Source: Acidobacteriota bacterium
GTDB taxonomy: Bacteria > Acidobacteriota > Terriglobia > Terriglobales > Acidobacteriaceae
NCBI GenBank assembly: GCA_019236695.1
Contig: JAFAIN010000341.1
Span: 1-33,688, forward strand
DNA length: 33,688 nt
Reading direction: 5' to 3'
Shown: in pieces, positions 12,678-17,340 of the stretch
Numbering within the stretch: position 1 is the stretch's first letter
Layout: every line of letters begins with the position of its first letter
Notes under the pieces: generated by a model
What the model saw: the letters and a program-made list of their open reading frames with translations, nothing else
Database searches by the model: none
Told to the model about the DNA's origin: nothing
Translations under genes and position numbers: made by a program

Positions 12678-13496
12678 TTGTTGCGTTGGACCGTGCTGTT
12701 CTGCGTTCCTGTTCTGGTTTTGTTTTGCTTAGCCGGTTGCGGCGGCCGTACTTCGGCGACTCCCGCACCGGGGAATGCTTCCACTGAGGCTCCCCAGGCG
12801 AACTCCACGCCGGCCGCTTCCGGGGTTTACGGGTCTATGGCAAACGCGGTTGGCAACATTGAGCAGATGGGCGGCTGGACGGCGTGCACGGCGCAGTTGC
12901 CGGATGGAATGCCGTGCGCCAGCGGCCTGGGAAACGCCGCATATTCCATGACGCAGCATATGCCCATCCCCTCCCGGGACGGGCATTCGACGCAATTCAG
13001 TATCTCGGGCCCGACCGGCTACTCCAATGTGCTGTGGTGGAACCAACTCACGCCCGCTCCCAGCGCGAGCCACTTCGTGTATGACTTCTGGGTGTATGTG
13101 ACGGAGTCGAATGCGCCCCAGGCATTGGAGTTCGATTTGAACCAGACGTTCGGCGGCACCAAGTACATCTTCGGAACGGAATGCAATTTCAAGGGCACGG
13201 GCGTGTGGGACGTTTGGGACGGCAGGGAAGGGAAATGGGTTCCATCACCGGTGGGGTGCGTTCCCTTTGCCGCAAACTCATGGACGCATGTGGCCTGGAC
13301 GTTCGAACGCGCCAACGGGCAGGTGCATTACGTCAGCATCGCCATCAATGGCACAACCTATCCGGTGAATATGTGGCAGGCGCCCCAGGCCAACGTGGAT
13401 GCGCAGGAACTGAACGTCGCGGTGCAGCTTGACGGGAACAGCAGGCAGCAGCCCTACAGCATCTGGATTGATGACATGAGCCTGAGTTACGACTGA
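12678..13496 (+). CDS. Lipoprotein of unknown function, probable beta-sandwich (concanavalin-like) fold
   Basis: A protein of about 272 residues. The N-terminus is a type II signal peptide with lipobox LAGC followed by GGR, then a Ser/Thr/Pro/Ala-rich linker of about 35 residues. The body is beta-rich with many aromatic residues (HFVYDFWVYV, ALEFDLNQTFGG, WDVWDGREGKWVP, WTHVAWTFER, IWIDDMSLSY), which resembles LamG/concanavalin-like sandwich domains in which a binding surface faces carbohydrate. I do not recognise a catalytic motif. The TTG at 12678 is preferred because AGGAG at 12665-12669 stands 8 nt before it; that same AGGAG overlaps a GTG at 12669, which therefore cannot use it. Its stop overlaps by 10 bp the end of the convergent FAH-family gene. 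Confidence 0.65.
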   Translation: MLRWTVLFCVPVLVLFCLAGCGGRTSATPAPGNASTEAPQANSTPAASGVYGSMANAVGNIEQMGGWTACTAQLPDGMPCASGLGNAAYSMTQHMPIPSRDGHSTQFSISGPTGYSNVLWWNQLTPAPSASHFVYDFWVYVTESNAPQALEFDLNQTFGGTKYIFGTECNFKGTGVWDVWDGREGKWVPSPVGCVPFAANSWTHVAWTFERANGQVHYVSIAINGTTYPVNMWQAPQANVDAQELNVAVQLDGNSRQQPYSIWIDDMSLSYD

Positions 13497-14467
13497 AACG
13501 CAACCACTGGGTTGCGCAACACACCGATGGTTTCGATTTCGCATTCGATGACGTCGCCGGGCTTGAGATACCAGGCTTTCGGGTCGCCGCTGAACGCGGC
13601 CACACCCGACACAGTGCCGGTGGAGACGACATCGCCCGCACTGTAGCCCATGGGCGAGTAATGCGCCAGGATCTCGGGAATTCTGACGGACATCCTGCTG
13701 GAATGCGATGCCTGGCGGCGCTCCCCGTTCACGCGCAGCTCCATGGCCAGGTCGTGTGGGTCGGGCACCTCGTCGGTGGTGACGATGTGCGGCCCGAGGG
13801 GGCAGAACGTATCGATTCCCTTGCAGAAGCTGAACACTCCGGACTTCATCTCCTGTCGCTGAATGTCGCGGGCCGTAATGTCATTAAAGATGAGGTAGCC
13901 CCCTACGTACTGCTCCGCGTCTTTGGCGTTGAAGTGCTTGCCCGCCTTCTTTACCACCACCGCAAGCTCGAGTTCGTAATCGAGTTCGCTGGTCAGGTGC
14001 TGGGGATAGACCACCGGGGCATCGGGCCCGATGATGGCGTCCACATTCTGAAAGAACACGATCCAGGGGAGCACCGGATGCGAGAAACCGGCCCGGCTGG
14101 CCTCTTCGTGATGTTCGCGAAAATTCCCGGCGGTGTGGAAGAACTTGCGGGGACTGACGGGGGCCTCGATGCGCACGTCTCCTGAGGAATAGAAAACCGC
14201 CTCTCCATGGCCGCCTGCCAACTGGTCGCCTCGTGCGTCGGCAAAATCCAGAGCATGGCGAGCCAAATCGAGGGAAGTGTCGCCTCCTGCAAATAACAGC
14301 CGCATGTCGGGCGGGACGTAGGCTTCCGCGAGGCGCAGAAACGCGGATTCATGCCTGAGATCGCGAAAGTATGCAGCCGCGGCGGCGGAGAGATCGACGA
14401 TGCGGCCGCCATGCCGCGCACCAATACGTTGCCGGCCGGCGTTATTTGTGAAGGTGACGAGGCGCAT
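13487..14467 (-). CDS. Fumarylacetoacetate hydrolase (FAH) family protein
   Basis: A 326-residue enzyme of the FAH superfamily, whose members hydrolyse or decarboxylate beta-dicarbonyl acids in aromatic or sugar-acid catabolism using Mg or Mn. Seen: an N-terminal lid domain (MRLVTFTNNAGRQRIGARHG), the metal-binding region SELDYELELAVVVKK at about 160-174, GYLIFNDITARDIQ at 190-203, KGIDTFCPLGP from 216, and the closing YLKPGDVIECEIETIG. The start at 14467 is chosen because family members begin near MRLVTF; the in-frame upstream stretch has no family resemblance. The start overlaps the end of the GHMP kinase by 26 bp, so expression is likely coupled. The substrate is unknown, and its grouping with sugar-activation genes is unexplained. 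Confidence 0.88.
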   Translation of the reverse strand: MRLVTFTNNAGRQRIGARHGGRIVDLSAAAAAYFRDLRHESAFLRLAEAYVPPDMRLLFAGGDTSLDLARHALDFADARGDQLAGGHGEAVFYSSGDVRIEAPVSPRKFFHTAGNFREHHEEASRAGFSHPVLPWIVFFQNVDAIIGPDAPVVYPQHLTSELDYELELAVVVKKAGKHFNAKDAEQYVGGYLIFNDITARDIQRQEMKSGVFSFCKGIDTFCPLGPHIVTTDEVPDPHDLAMELRVNGERRQASHSSRMSVRIPEILAHYSPMGYSAGDVVSTGTVSGVAAFSGDPKAWYLKPGDVIECEIETIGVLRNPVVAFQS

Positions 14468-15857
14468 AGATGGTTTGAGCTGCCGGAAAAATATCACAGG
14501 AAGGCGATATTTCAAGCATTCCCGGGCCGGCATTCGTGGTGAAGAACTCGGCTTCGGAGGCGGCGCCGGGAAAGCGCCTGGAATAATCAACCCTCCAGGC
14601 CTCGAGAAAGGCGTGTGCGTCGGAACGAAGCACGACTGCCCACACGCTGCCTCCGAACCCTGCGCCGAACGAAGAGGCCGCGATTGCGCCCAGGCTCCGG
14701 GCCATCCGCGCAAGAAACACGGTTTCGGCTGTCTGGTTTTTCAGCAGGCGTTCGGCCTGGGTTTGCGAAGCATCCATCGCCTGCCCCAATGCCGCGAAAT
14801 CTTTCGTGCGAAAGGCGGCTGCCACCCGGGGCACAACCTGCTCGGATTCGAAAACAAAGTGCTCAAACCTGTCGCCGAGCTCCTCCGCGGAAAATTCGGC
14901 TTGCCGGCTTGCGCGGAGAGTTTTTCTGATTCGCTCGCAGGTTTCGGCACCGGAGCGAACGGCTTCGCCGAGCGACGCGACAGGCCGGCCTGCGAACTCG
15001 CGCCACGTTTCGAGCACGGTTCGCGCGGCGAGCGAGGCGCGATTGTAGCTGTCGCGCGCCGGCCCGGTCTTCTCCGCGTGTATGCCGCTGGAAGCGACTG
15101 CAAACACCCAATCATGGGGCATGGGGACGTACTCCTGAAGGCGGGCCGGGCAAAACTGAAATTGTGCAAGCCGGCCCGGCTGCGAGAGACAGATGGCGGC
15201 GTGATCTTCGCTGCCTCCGAAGGTGCCAACACCGGCGCCGCCCTCCAGCGGCATTCCGGCAGCGCCCTGAAATGTCTGGCCGTTCTCGACACAACCGAGA
15301 TATTCGATCAGCTCAATCTCCGAGCGAACGGCCGAAAAGTTGGGGGAGCGACCGCAGTCGCTGAAACCGAGCAGCGCCACAAAAACCGCAATTGTCAGCG
15401 CCGAGGAGCTGCTGAGGCCGGCGGCCCGGGGCAGGTCACTGGCCAGCGCAATCTCCACGCCCCGCAGCGCACCCGGATAGTTGCGCTGCAGGCGTTCGTG
15501 AACGGCGGCAGCGTACTCGGCCCAGTGCGGCTGGTCCTGGGGAAGGGAATGCGCGCCGATGGGCAGCACGACCTCGCGGGCTCCTGCAGCCGCGCGAAGG
15601 TCAACCGCTCGAATGAATGGTTCGGGCACGGCGGCGGCCACGACGCAGATTCCGCGTTCGGCGGCGCATACCAGGCTCTGCCCGCCGGCATAGTCGGTGT
15701 GTTTGCCTGCAACTTCGATTCTCCCGGGAACAAACCAGCGCCGGGTTTGCCGGTCAGGATGAAAACGCGCTTCCGCCGCGGCAAACAATGCTGCCTTGCC
15801 GGCTGCCTCCTCAGGCGAAAGGCCGGCCATTGTGAGCTGCTCCGCCAGGCGACTCAA
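14442..15857 (-). CDS. Galactokinase-family GHMP sugar kinase
   Basis: A 471-residue ATP-dependent sugar 1-kinase. Seen: the galactokinase signature in altered form, PGRIEVAGKHTDYAGG at about 44-59; the phosphate-binding GHMP motif PRAAGLSSSSAL near 143-154; GTFGGSEDHAAI, likely to carry the catalytic Asp; and GAGFGGSVWAVV near the C-terminus. In standard galactokinases the first motif reads GEHTDY, where the Glu contacts the sugar; here it is Lys (K52), so the preferred sugar may differ from galactose. The TTG start at 15857 forms a TTGA overlap with the stop of the upstream nucleotidyltransferase and has GAGG about 8 nt before it. With that neighbour it could form a two-step route from free sugar to sugar-1-phosphate to NDP-sugar. 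The length is greater than E. coli GalK (382). Confidence 0.82.
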   Translation of the reverse strand: MSRLAEQLTMAGLSPEEAAGKAALFAAAEARFHPDRQTRRWFVPGRIEVAGKHTDYAGGQSLVCAAERGICVVAAAVPEPFIRAVDLRAAAGAREVVLPIGAHSLPQDQPHWAEYAAAVHERLQRNYPGALRGVEIALASDLPRAAGLSSSSALTIAVFVALLGFSDCGRSPNFSAVRSEIELIEYLGCVENGQTFQGAAGMPLEGGAGVGTFGGSEDHAAICLSQPGRLAQFQFCPARLQEYVPMPHDWVFAVASSGIHAEKTGPARDSYNRASLAARTVLETWREFAGRPVASLGEAVRSGAETCERIRKTLRASRQAEFSAEELGDRFEHFVFESEQVVPRVAAAFRTKDFAALGQAMDASQTQAERLLKNQTAETVFLARMARSLGAIAASSFGAGFGGSVWAVVLRSDAHAFLEAWRVDYSRRFPGAASEAEFFTTNAGPGMLEISPSCDIFPAAQTIYAPRHLHK

Positions 15858-16663
15858 AGCTCGACCTCAACCGAGTCAAGCGCGCGAGCCACTTCGGCGA
15901 TATCGGCGCGCATGGAGAGATCGAGCACGCCGAGTTCCGAGACCTCCGCCCGCATACGCATGCCCGCGCTGACTGCCTGTTGAATGGCCTGCGGCAGCTC
16001 GTATTCGCCGCGTCCCGAGCGTGCAACGGTGCGGCAATAGGGCAGAATTTCGGGCGACAAACGCCACAGATTCATGCTGATCAGGGTATCGGGCGAAGAC
16101 ACGGGAGTTTCTGACGGCACGCGGGTGCCCCCCGGCTTTTCCCGCAAAGCTGAGAGATAGCCGCCGCGGATTTCACAGAACGCGAACTGGCGAAGGCGTT
16201 CAGCGGGAATGTTGCTGCTGCGGACCAAGGCTCCGGCTTTGAAGAGCACTACGCCGGGGGCGCCGAGAGCAGTAAGCCTTCGCAGCACGTCAACCGGGTA
16301 GTAATTGTCCGAATTGAGACACAGGAACTGATCCGAGCCAATGAAGCGTTCGGCGGCTGCCAGCGCGTCAGCAGTGCCGAGCGGCTCCGCCTGTTCCGCA
16401 TAAGTGAGTGCCAGCCGCCGGAGCTGCTGCCCCCGGTAGTGCTGGCGGATTGGGTTTGGGCCGGGAGCAATGACCAGGCAAACCTCTCCAACACCGGCAT
16501 CAGCCAGGCCGCTGAGAACGTAATCAAGAAACGGGCGGCGGAGCGGAATCATCCCTTTGATTCCGGTATCGGCTGCCTGGGATTGTGCATCGGTGAGCGC
16601 AGATGCCGCATGCGCCTGACGCATGCGCCTTCCGACGCCTCGAGCCAGGATGACGGCTTTCAC
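15854..16663 (-). CDS. Sugar-phosphate nucleotidyltransferase (NTP_transferase family)
   Basis: A 269-residue nucleotidyltransferase with a Rossmann-like core. Seen: VKAVILARGVGRRMRQ at the N-terminus (an ARGxGxRM variant of the usual AGGxGTRL nucleotide loop), KGMIPLRRPFLDYVLSGLADAG, YAEQAEPLGTADALAAAERF, the metal-binding FLCLNSDNYYPVDVL, and a C-terminal half with SMNLWRLSPEILPYC and RGEYELPQAI. Such enzymes join a sugar-1-phosphate to a nucleoside triphosphate to give an NDP-sugar. The base and sugar are not determined. The GTG at 16663 is preferred; the in-frame sequence further upstream belongs to the preceding gene on another frame. It starts 14 bp after the Big_2 lipoprotein stop and overlaps the GHMP kinase by 4 bp. 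Confidence 0.82.
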   Translation of the reverse strand: MKAVILARGVGRRMRQAHAASALTDAQSQAADTGIKGMIPLRRPFLDYVLSGLADAGVGEVCLVIAPGPNPIRQHYRGQQLRRLALTYAEQAEPLGTADALAAAERFIGSDQFLCLNSDNYYPVDVLRRLTALGAPGVVLFKAGALVRSSNIPAERLRQFAFCEIRGGYLSALREKPGGTRVPSETPVSSPDTLISMNLWRLSPEILPYCRTVARSGRGEYELPQAIQQAVSAGMRMRAEVSELGVLDLSMRADIAEVARALDSVEVEL

Positions 16664-16677
16664 GCCGAGAGCATACC

Positions 16678-17340
16678 TTAGAACGTAACGGTCACCGAGA
16701 AAGCGGGGCTGGCCACTCCCTGGTAGGTTGCAGTGATGTTGGCCGAACCGGTGGAGACCGCCGTAAGCACGCCGCTGGTGCTCACTGTGGCTACGCTGGT
16801 GTTCGACGAGGCCCACGTCGAGGATGACGTAACGTCCTGTGTGGTGTTATTGGAAAACGTAGCCGTCGCGACCAACTGGATTGCGCCGGTAGCCGTGGTC
16901 ATGGTCACACCGCTGGCCGTGCAGATTCCCAAGGAGCCGGAGCCGCAACTGATGGCAATGGAACTGGCCACCGAATTTGCCACCGTAAGATTGGTGCTGG
17001 CGCTGTAGCCGCCTGCCTTTGCCGTAATGATGGTAGTGCCCAGGCCGACCGCAGTTGCCAGGCCGCTGGTACTGATGGTTGCCACGCCGGTGGACGACGA
17101 GCTCCAGGTGGCACTGCTGCTTATATCCTTCGTGCTCAGGTCGCCGTAGGTTCCGGTGGCACTGAACTGCTGCGTTGCCGCCTGGTTGGAAGAATTGTGC
17201 AGGGTGATGGCAGGATTCAGCGGAGAGAGCGAAATTCCGGCGAGGTCCTTGGCCCCAATGAAGAACTTGCCGCAACTGAGCGCGGTTCCGAGGCACAACA
17301 GAGCGCCCAGCGTGATGGCGATCCTGATGCGATTGGCCAT
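16678..17340 (-). CDS. Lipoprotein with two bacterial Ig-like (Big_2) domains
   Basis: A 220-residue exported protein. Residues 1-23 form a lipoprotein signal (ALLCLGTALSC-G). Two Big_2-type domains follow, with the standard pattern of a theme strand (LSPLNPAITLHNSSNQAATQ), QFSATGTYGD, ATWSSSSTGVATIST-GLATAVGLGTTIITA and, in the second, STWASSNTSVATVSTSGVLTAVSTGSANITATY. These domains usually mediate adhesion or act as spacers; no enzymatic domain is present. It is first in a minus-strand cluster with the nucleotidyltransferase, but a functional link is not evident. A TATACT hexamer at 17380-17385 on the same strand is a possible promoter. Confidence 0.85.
   Translation of the reverse strand: MANRIRIAITLGALLCLGTALSCGKFFIGAKDLAGISLSPLNPAITLHNSSNQAATQQFSATGTYGDLSTKDISSSATWSSSSTGVATISTSGLATAVGLGTTIITAKAGGYSASTNLTVANSVASSIAISCGSGSLGICTASGVTMTTATGAIQLVATATFSNNTTQDVTSSSTWASSNTSVATVSTSGVLTAVSTGSANITATYQGVASPAFSVTVTF

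Follow-up and report, generated by a model that had tools for sequence, protein, structure and literature searches.

The accessible text of a 2025 review describes bacterial use of N-acetylgalactosamine (GalNAc) as proceeding via GalNAc-6-phosphate, and within that text the terms UDP-GalNAc and GalNAc-1 are absent (PMC12118421); a 2017 survey, as far as its accessible part goes, treats AgaS as the signature gene of GalNAc use (PMC5583593). Here we describe a gene pair on a contig of an Acidobacteriota bacterium (JAFAIN010000341.1; 33,688 bases, analyzed in its entirety and referred to as the window) in which a kinase of the galactokinase family overlaps a sugar-1-phosphate nucleotidyltransferase. 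The pair is rather likely to comprise a GalNAc 1-kinase and a pyrophosphorylase for uridine diphosphate (UDP)-GalNAc, that is, a salvage unit standing in place of the Aga route. The Aga/Kba system (AgaA, AgaS, KbaZ, and AgaR) apparently serves the same sugar, and it has hydrolases and a symporter type in common with the genomes that carry the pair, but it proceeds via GalNAc-6-phosphate (PMC12118421, accessible text), whereas GalNAc-1-phosphate is proposed for the pair. This proposed chemistry, from GalNAc through GalNAc-1-phosphate to UDP-GalNAc, is the same as that of human GALK2 and AGX1/UAP1, which, unlike the pair, do not form an operon. AGX1/UAP1 belongs to a different and larger pyrophosphorylase family than the enzyme studied here. 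The logic proposed for the pair is also that of the N-acetylhexosamine 1-kinase NahK acting with its nucleotidyltransferase in some bacteria; NahK has an aminoglycoside-phosphotransferase-like fold and was not one of the solved structures matched by the window kinase. The fucose and heptose systems FKP and HddA/HddC, each a kinase with a nucleotidyltransferase, follow a comparable two-step logic, but FKP and HddA represent other GHMP branches: the kinase part of FKP is remotely similar in structure (9iip, Z 25.3), and heptokinases give weak profile matches (4n3o, E 4e-9; 3k85, E 2e-5). Finally, GalK of the Leloir pathway shares with the window kinase the family, the fold, and the catalytic Arg and Asp; the window kinase differs in having Lys for Glu in the GEHTDY motif and in being partnered by a nucleotidyltransferase rather than by galT or galE. 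In the open-access literature searched, we found no bacterial kinase of the GHMP type that acts on GalNAc and comes with a pyrophosphorylase of its own, and GalNAc is probably converted here to UDP-GalNAc by a route not known in bacteria.

A preliminary description of this DNA had reported a galactokinase-family kinase with the motif GKHTDY that overlaps a nucleotidyltransferase by 4 bp. Both open reading frames (ORFs), called with a simple custom script, were recovered at the coordinates given there, with Pfam domains above cut-off (Table 1). The N terminus of the nucleotidyltransferase is VKAVILARGVGRRM, and the kinase sequence around its motif is VPGRIEVAGKHTDYAGG. An ORF of 527 amino acids on the opposite strand (14400-15983) was discarded as spurious; the minus-strand frames are backed by homologues.

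Table 1. Positions of the gene pair, its motifs, and the adjoining genes in the window
Feature	Position	Strand	Remarks
Sugar-1-phosphate nucleotidyltransferase, RmlA/GalU/GlmU-type, PF00483	15854..16663	-	269 amino acids; GTG start at 16663
GHMP kinase, galactokinase family, GKHTDY	14442..15857	-	471 amino acids; TTG start at 15857
Overlap of nucleotidyltransferase stop and kinase start, TTGA	15854..15857	-	4 bp; -4 overlap also in most relatives
GKHTDY codons, kinase residues 51-56	15690..15707	-	Lys52 in place of Glu of GEHTDY
ARGVGRRM codons, nucleotide-binding loop, nucleotidyltransferase residues 7-14	16622..16645	-	A7, G9, G11, and R13 invariant in 30 aligned rows
Fumarylacetoacetate-hydrolase (FAH)-family ORF	13487..14467	-	PF01557, 217.6 bits (scanned from 14464); 26-bp overlap with kinase 3' end
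Small protein with bacterial Ig-like (Big_2) domains	16678-17340	-	Directly upstream of nucleotidyltransferase (Pfam)

The preliminary description had named conservation of the two genes as neighbors as a check on its claim, and such conservation was found both within Acidobacteriota and across phyla. Matches to the kinase of at least 240 bits are present in 26 of 396 Acidobacteriota genomes, including that of the window, the next match reaching 91 bits. In 22 of the 25 other loci, the nucleotidyltransferase gene immediately precedes that of the kinase, with gaps ranging from -25 to +9 and most commonly of -4; in the remaining loci, the two halves are at contig ends (G227) or the kinase has no nucleotidyltransferase beside it (G172 and G285). 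The distribution is patchy, since no other sampled member of the window's own family holds the pair. A scan of named genomes confirmed 464 kinase relatives, of which 80 loci were kept; these belong to Acidobacteriota, Gemmatimonadota, Planctomycetota, Actinomycetota (including Cutibacterium), Marinimicrobia, Latescibacterota, and one Bacteroidetes bin. Here the nucleotidyltransferase is directly upstream in 57 loci, elsewhere in the locus in 5, and missing in 13; in the other 5, the kinase lies at the edge of its contig. Many soil and water bacteria carry the pair. The distance matrices of the two proteins correlate with an r of 0.768 over 79 pairs, a value attained in 0 of 2,000 permutations (best, 0.185). 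The neighbor counts and this correlation together exclude a chance neighborhood. In the kinase tree, phyla cluster, although not cleanly, and the window row has no well-supported close kin. Rows were dropped from several alignments: nine neighbor rows from A3 and three from A4, compared with full lists of 58 (D1) and 52 (U1), and 25 and 27 from A7 and A8, out of 85 and 88.

The kinase matches the three Pfam domains typical of galactokinases above cut-off, namely, the galactose-binding signature PF10509 (39.5 bits) and the GHMP N and C domains PF00288 (34.2 bits) and PF08544 (29.1 bits). Against the NCBIfam galactokinase model TIGR00131, it scores 83.7 bits and does not reach the cut-off of 226.65, and it is under the cut-off of each of four further NCBIfam galactokinase models. 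The position of the Glu in GEHTDY is occupied by Lys in 78 of 79 pair loci and by Arg in the other, and Lys52 is also invariant in a separate 45-row kinase alignment (A6). From another kinase alignment (A1), L055, L059, and L076 were left out on account of stops within their extended translations. The Glu-to-Lys change is a hallmark of this kinase family. The motif GKHTDY was not found in the open-access literature searched. The substituted residue corresponds to Glu43 of galactokinase, which we take to contact O6 of galactose. Residues R46, H53, D55, and D218 are conserved in all 79 pair loci, as are Lys263 and Asn272, and Y271 is found in 78. In a profile alignment, Lys263 coincides with a Lys of human GALK2, which has kept the Glu (GEHIDY). 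By profile, GALK2 is the second-best PDB match of the kinase (E 5e-36). The AlphaFold2 model, with a predicted local distance difference test (pLDDT) score of 92.4, has galactokinases as its closest solved folds (2dei, Z 42.6; root mean square deviation [RMSD], 2.0 Å over 349 residues), followed by the human GalNAc kinase GALK2 (2a2c, Z 37.3; RMSD, 3.0 Å over 397 residues). Judged by this model, the fold does not decide the sugar specificity. No publication on the solved-structure match named AbGHMP was traced in the open-access literature.

Genes for kinases with GSHTDY are found near the pair in three loci (L143 and, with similar genes, L090 and L097). The one at L143:8484-9662, a GalK-family protein, scores 296.2 bits with TIGR00131 and is above its cut-off, so the Glu of GEHTDY is not absolute in galactokinases.

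As the preliminary description had noted, no Leloir genes are located near the pair. This holds for the window but not for the genome, where galK, galE, and galT lie side by side on another contig (C73) and score 365.5, 429.4, and 472.5 bits, all above the TIGRFAM cut-off; since this cluster is separate, the pair is not the galactose route of the genome. That the kinase is not an ordinary galactokinase, another element of the preliminary description, is borne out at the sequence level by the missed equivalog cut-offs, the motif, the partner gene, and the separate galK-galE-galT cluster. Six of the 26 pair genomes have both a galactokinase above cut-off and a GalT match of more than 100 bits and some others have neither, which indicates that pair and Leloir route are independent of each other.

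The nucleotidyltransferase matches PF00483 with 41.6 bits, above cut-off, and remains under the equivalog cut-offs of RmlA, GalU, GlmU, AglF, HddC, and MurU, its best score being that for AglF (80.6 versus 400 bits). Lys36, Asp119, Lys176, and Asp248 are invariant in all 30 aligned rows. So are Gln91 and Gly96; in alignment, both correspond to the RmlA/GalU type, whose substrate nucleotide is deoxythymidine triphosphate or uridine triphosphate (UTP). Gln91 presumably occupies the position that reads the uracil or thymine base of the nucleotide. In eight loci of the genus g46 (family f29; L063-L065 and L067-L071), an orthologue of about 48 to 50% identity is followed by a PF00464 gene for a serine-hydroxymethyltransferase-like protein (c3), and there is no kinase. 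The nucleotidyltransferase may have a second, unrelated role in this genus.

GalNAc is suggested as the substrate by the gene content of whole genomes. GH109, a family of alpha-GalNAc hydrolases, is encoded in 110 of the 396 genomes, namely, in 21 of 26 with the pair (2 of them with short partial sequences) and in 89 of 370 without it (Fisher test ignoring relatedness, P = 8e-9). When only full-length sequences are counted, 19 of the 26 pair genomes have GH109 (P = 6e-7, relatedness again ignored). None of the eight g46 genomes that hold the nucleotidyltransferase without the kinase has GH109. AgaS (TIGR02815) shows the opposite pattern: it was detected in none of the 26 pair genomes, compared with 29 of 64 tested non-pair genomes bearing GH109 or c2 (a candidate hydrolase described below) and 4 of the 38 genomes tested that have neither hydrolase (Fisher figures for the AgaS groups, 8e-6 for the first comparison and 4e-4). 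The 64 genomes were hand-picked from about 99 that lack the pair but encode GH109 or match c2 strongly, and the threshold of 195 bits was of our own choosing, the curated cut-off of 529 being reached by none; G243, whose nucleotidyltransferase gene is at the end of a contig that also encodes GH109, was counted as non-pair. Within the genus g47, each of the seven genomes with GH109 has exactly one of the two systems, the pair in four and AgaS in three. NahK, searched with its first 70 residues, was found in 1 of 14 pair genomes versus 7 of 13 GH109-bearing genomes lacking AgaS (P = 0.013).

The AgaS-family proteins of Acidobacteriota score at most about 301 bits with TIGR02815 (none above the cut-off of 529 in 48 and in 80 genomes), so annotation by this model would miss all of them.

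In several non-pair genomes, c2 or GH109 lies in an Aga-type GalNAc operon: AgaR (above its cut-off), a PfkB-type kinase, c2, and AgaS in L172; AgaS, KbaZ (above its cut-off), AgaR, and c2 in L176; AgaR, GH109, KbaZ, AgaS, and a PfkB-type kinase in L193; and GH109, AgaR, a PfkB-type kinase, and a symporter 58 to 60% identical to the pair-linked symporters in L198. When 20 GH109 regions were inspected, 10 each from pair genomes and others, Aga-type genes were found in L193 and L198 only. None of the partner genes sought was present in the other 18 regions, L190 excepted, where two symporters lie at a distance. One relative from the window's own family has c2, a nucleotidyltransferase with no NCBIfam match, and an N-acetylhexosamine 1-kinase (PDB 4ocu, E 5e-81) in succession (L175:4830-8892). 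This is a second kinase-plus-nucleotidyltransferase pair, in which an unrelated kinase takes the corresponding role.

Among the genes surrounding the pair, the most recurrent over 106 loci were those for a sodium:solute symporter (31 loci), GH109 (11), c2 (11), phosphoglucomutase-like proteins (7), a glucosamine-6-phosphate deaminase/PIG-L fusion (3), and GH51 arabinofuranosidases (3). In total, 219 neighbors were scanned against families, and the family readings refer to the 25 commonest listed per scan. In the 80 loci, the symporter is enriched within two genes of the pair (18 of 277 near versus 4 of 367 far genes, P = 2e-4), and so is c2, which is that close in 13 loci (13 of 277 near versus 0 of 367 far genes, P = 1.5e-5). 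Phosphoglucomutase-like genes lie within two genes in six loci, Cutibacterium included, with weaker enrichment (P = 0.006). The GH109 neighbor matches a solved GH109 enzyme (6t2b, E 7e-106) and an alpha-N-acetylgalactosaminidase (2ixa, E 7e-77). The support from GH109 comes from whole-genome co-occurrence and not from neighborhood.

The protein c2, of about 690 amino acids, has no significant match in Pfam, NCBIfam, or the PDB sequences and was placed by fold search only. Its model is closest to GH36 alpha-galactosidases, a Flavonifractor galactosaminidase, and the GH129 alpha-N-acetylgalactosaminidase NagBb; based on this model, c2 is probably an unrecognized glycoside hydrolase family near GH36/GH129. 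Its genes (loci L082, L083, L090, L110, L113, L130, L171, L172, L175, and L176) occur next to the pair, within Aga operons, and adjacent to NahK, and the window's genome encodes a strong homologue on contig C43 (L171; 1,056.6 bits). Longer relatives of about 900 amino acids, scoring near 300 bits, exist in other Acidobacteriota.

In the pathway that we propose, an exported alpha-GalNAc hydrolase, either GH109 or the GH36/GH129-like enzyme encoded elsewhere in the window's genome, would release GalNAc, and the sodium:solute symporter encoded beside the pair in many species would import it. The kinase would then phosphorylate the anomeric hydroxyl to give GalNAc-1-phosphate, from which the nucleotidyltransferase, using UTP, would form UDP-GalNAc and pyrophosphate. 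UDP-GalNAc might be used for glycans, or C4 epimerization, reversed uridylyl transfer, and a mutase could lead it into N-acetylglucosamine catabolism. Genome context leads us to GalNAc; UTP as the nucleotide, hydrolase export, GalNAc uptake through the symporter, and what becomes of the product are likewise inferred. The preliminary description had envisaged nucleoside diphosphate-sugar salvage of an uncommon sugar; a coupled sugar 1-kinase and nucleotidyltransferase agree with the first part, whereas an uncommon sugar is probably too exotic, as the context favors GalNAc. The substrate is thus probably a common amino sugar that is activated by an uncommon bacterial route. If the pair has the proposed activities, GalNAc users in Acidobacteriota, Planctomycetota, Gemmatimonadota, Actinomycetota, and other phyla would have been misjudged as non-users, a large family currently named after galactokinase would need renaming, and two soluble proteins would offer a compact route to UDP-GalNAc.

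A number of observations weigh against GalNAc as the substrate. (i) In the window itself, the pair adjoins neither a hydrolase nor a symporter, and the genome has no GH109; across the 26 pair genomes, 4 have neither GH109 nor c2. (ii) In the 80 loci, the nearness of GH109 to the pair is not significant (8 of 277 near versus 5 of 367 far genes, P = 0.14), three loci have the GH51 arabinofuranosidase as a neighbor instead, and no epimerase or regulator recurs beside the pair. (iii) The structure predicted for c2 is a weak model (pLDDT, 63.6; whole-chain RMSD, more than 20 Å). (iv) AgaS is lacking in 35 of the 64 hydrolase-bearing non-pair genomes, so its exclusion is one-way only and other GalNAc routes or other uses of GH109 exist. 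(v) GalNAc does not account for the Glu-to-Lys change, given that GALK2 keeps the Glu in the alignments.

Since GalNAc leaves Lys52 unexplained, there is room for a sugar changed at C6. An unlikely alternative of this kind is a substrate of galacto configuration that is negatively charged at C6, whether galacturonate, N-acetylgalactosaminuronate, or a 6-sulfated sugar, with Lys52 pairing with the charge. The presence of Lys, or once Arg, in all 79 pair loci at the position of the Glu presumed to contact O6 is consistent with this, as are the invariance of Lys263 and the motif of plant galacturonokinase, GAHIDH, which has also lost the Glu. However, human GALK2 also has a Lys at the position of Lys263, which is thus not special to an acidic sugar; the commonest neighbor families listed include no pectin- or uronate-processing family, and GH109 and the exclusion of AgaS favor GalNAc. 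A narrower version, in which Lys52 would read a negative charge at C6 of a galactosamine derivative (N-acetylgalactosaminuronate or 6-sulfated GalNAc) that the pair activates, strikes us as quite improbable. It would imply a direct salvage route, spread over many uncultured phyla, to a nucleotide sugar for which de novo oxidation is, to our knowledge, the only bacterial source.

It is also distinctly doubtful that the pair bypasses GalT in galactose use, with galactose-1-phosphate converted to UDP-galactose by a UDP-sugar pyrophosphorylase and then processed by GalE and a phosphoglucomutase, even though the kinase fold is closest to galactokinases and phosphoglucomutase-like genes accompany the pair in six loci. 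In addition, PF01087 matches of at least 100 bits are missing from 18 of the 26 pair genomes, and 15 have no galactokinase above the TIGR00131 cut-off. Such a bypass leaves the link to GH109 and the mutual exclusion with AgaS unexplained, places a Lys where the Glu presumed to contact galactose O6 is expected, and is at odds with the complete galK-galE-galT cluster of the window's genome and with the six pair genomes that have GalK and GalT. The finding of the pair and Leloir genes both together and apart weakens GalT replacement as a general role. Less probable still, in our view, is that the link to GH109 and c2 reflects common lineage and lifestyle, the pair supplying surface glycans with an unrelated activated sugar such as L-arabinose, fucose, or a heptose. 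Pair genomes are concentrated in few families, so that the Fisher tests overstate independence; GH51 adjoins the pair in three of the 80 loci; and systems made up of a GHMP kinase and a nucleotidyltransferase are already known to act on fucose and heptoses. Nevertheless, the GH109 genomes of the genus g47 split between the pair and AgaS, relatives with the nucleotidyltransferase but no kinase lack GH109, c2 directly adjoins the pair, and no glycosyltransferase cluster recurs among the listed neighbor families.

Other genes next to the pair vary with the lineage. In Phycisphaerae, a deaminase/PIG-L deacetylase fusion of the PRK02122 type is located directly upstream of the unit (L114 and L116), and in L147 it is upstream of the kinase alone. 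In the cultured genus Cutibacterium (L146, L153, and L154), the pair is followed on the same strand by a phosphoglucomutase/GlmM-like gene; C. avidum (L154) and C. porci are the named cultured carriers encountered in this analysis. For the FAH-family ORF downstream of the kinase in the window, the closest NCBIfam model is didehydro-deoxy-rhamnonate hydrolase, with a score far under cut-off. This gene was rejected as a third member of the unit, as a homologue was found in only one other locus (L061), away from the pair; it is probably cotranscribed with the kinase, yet no conserved member of the unit.

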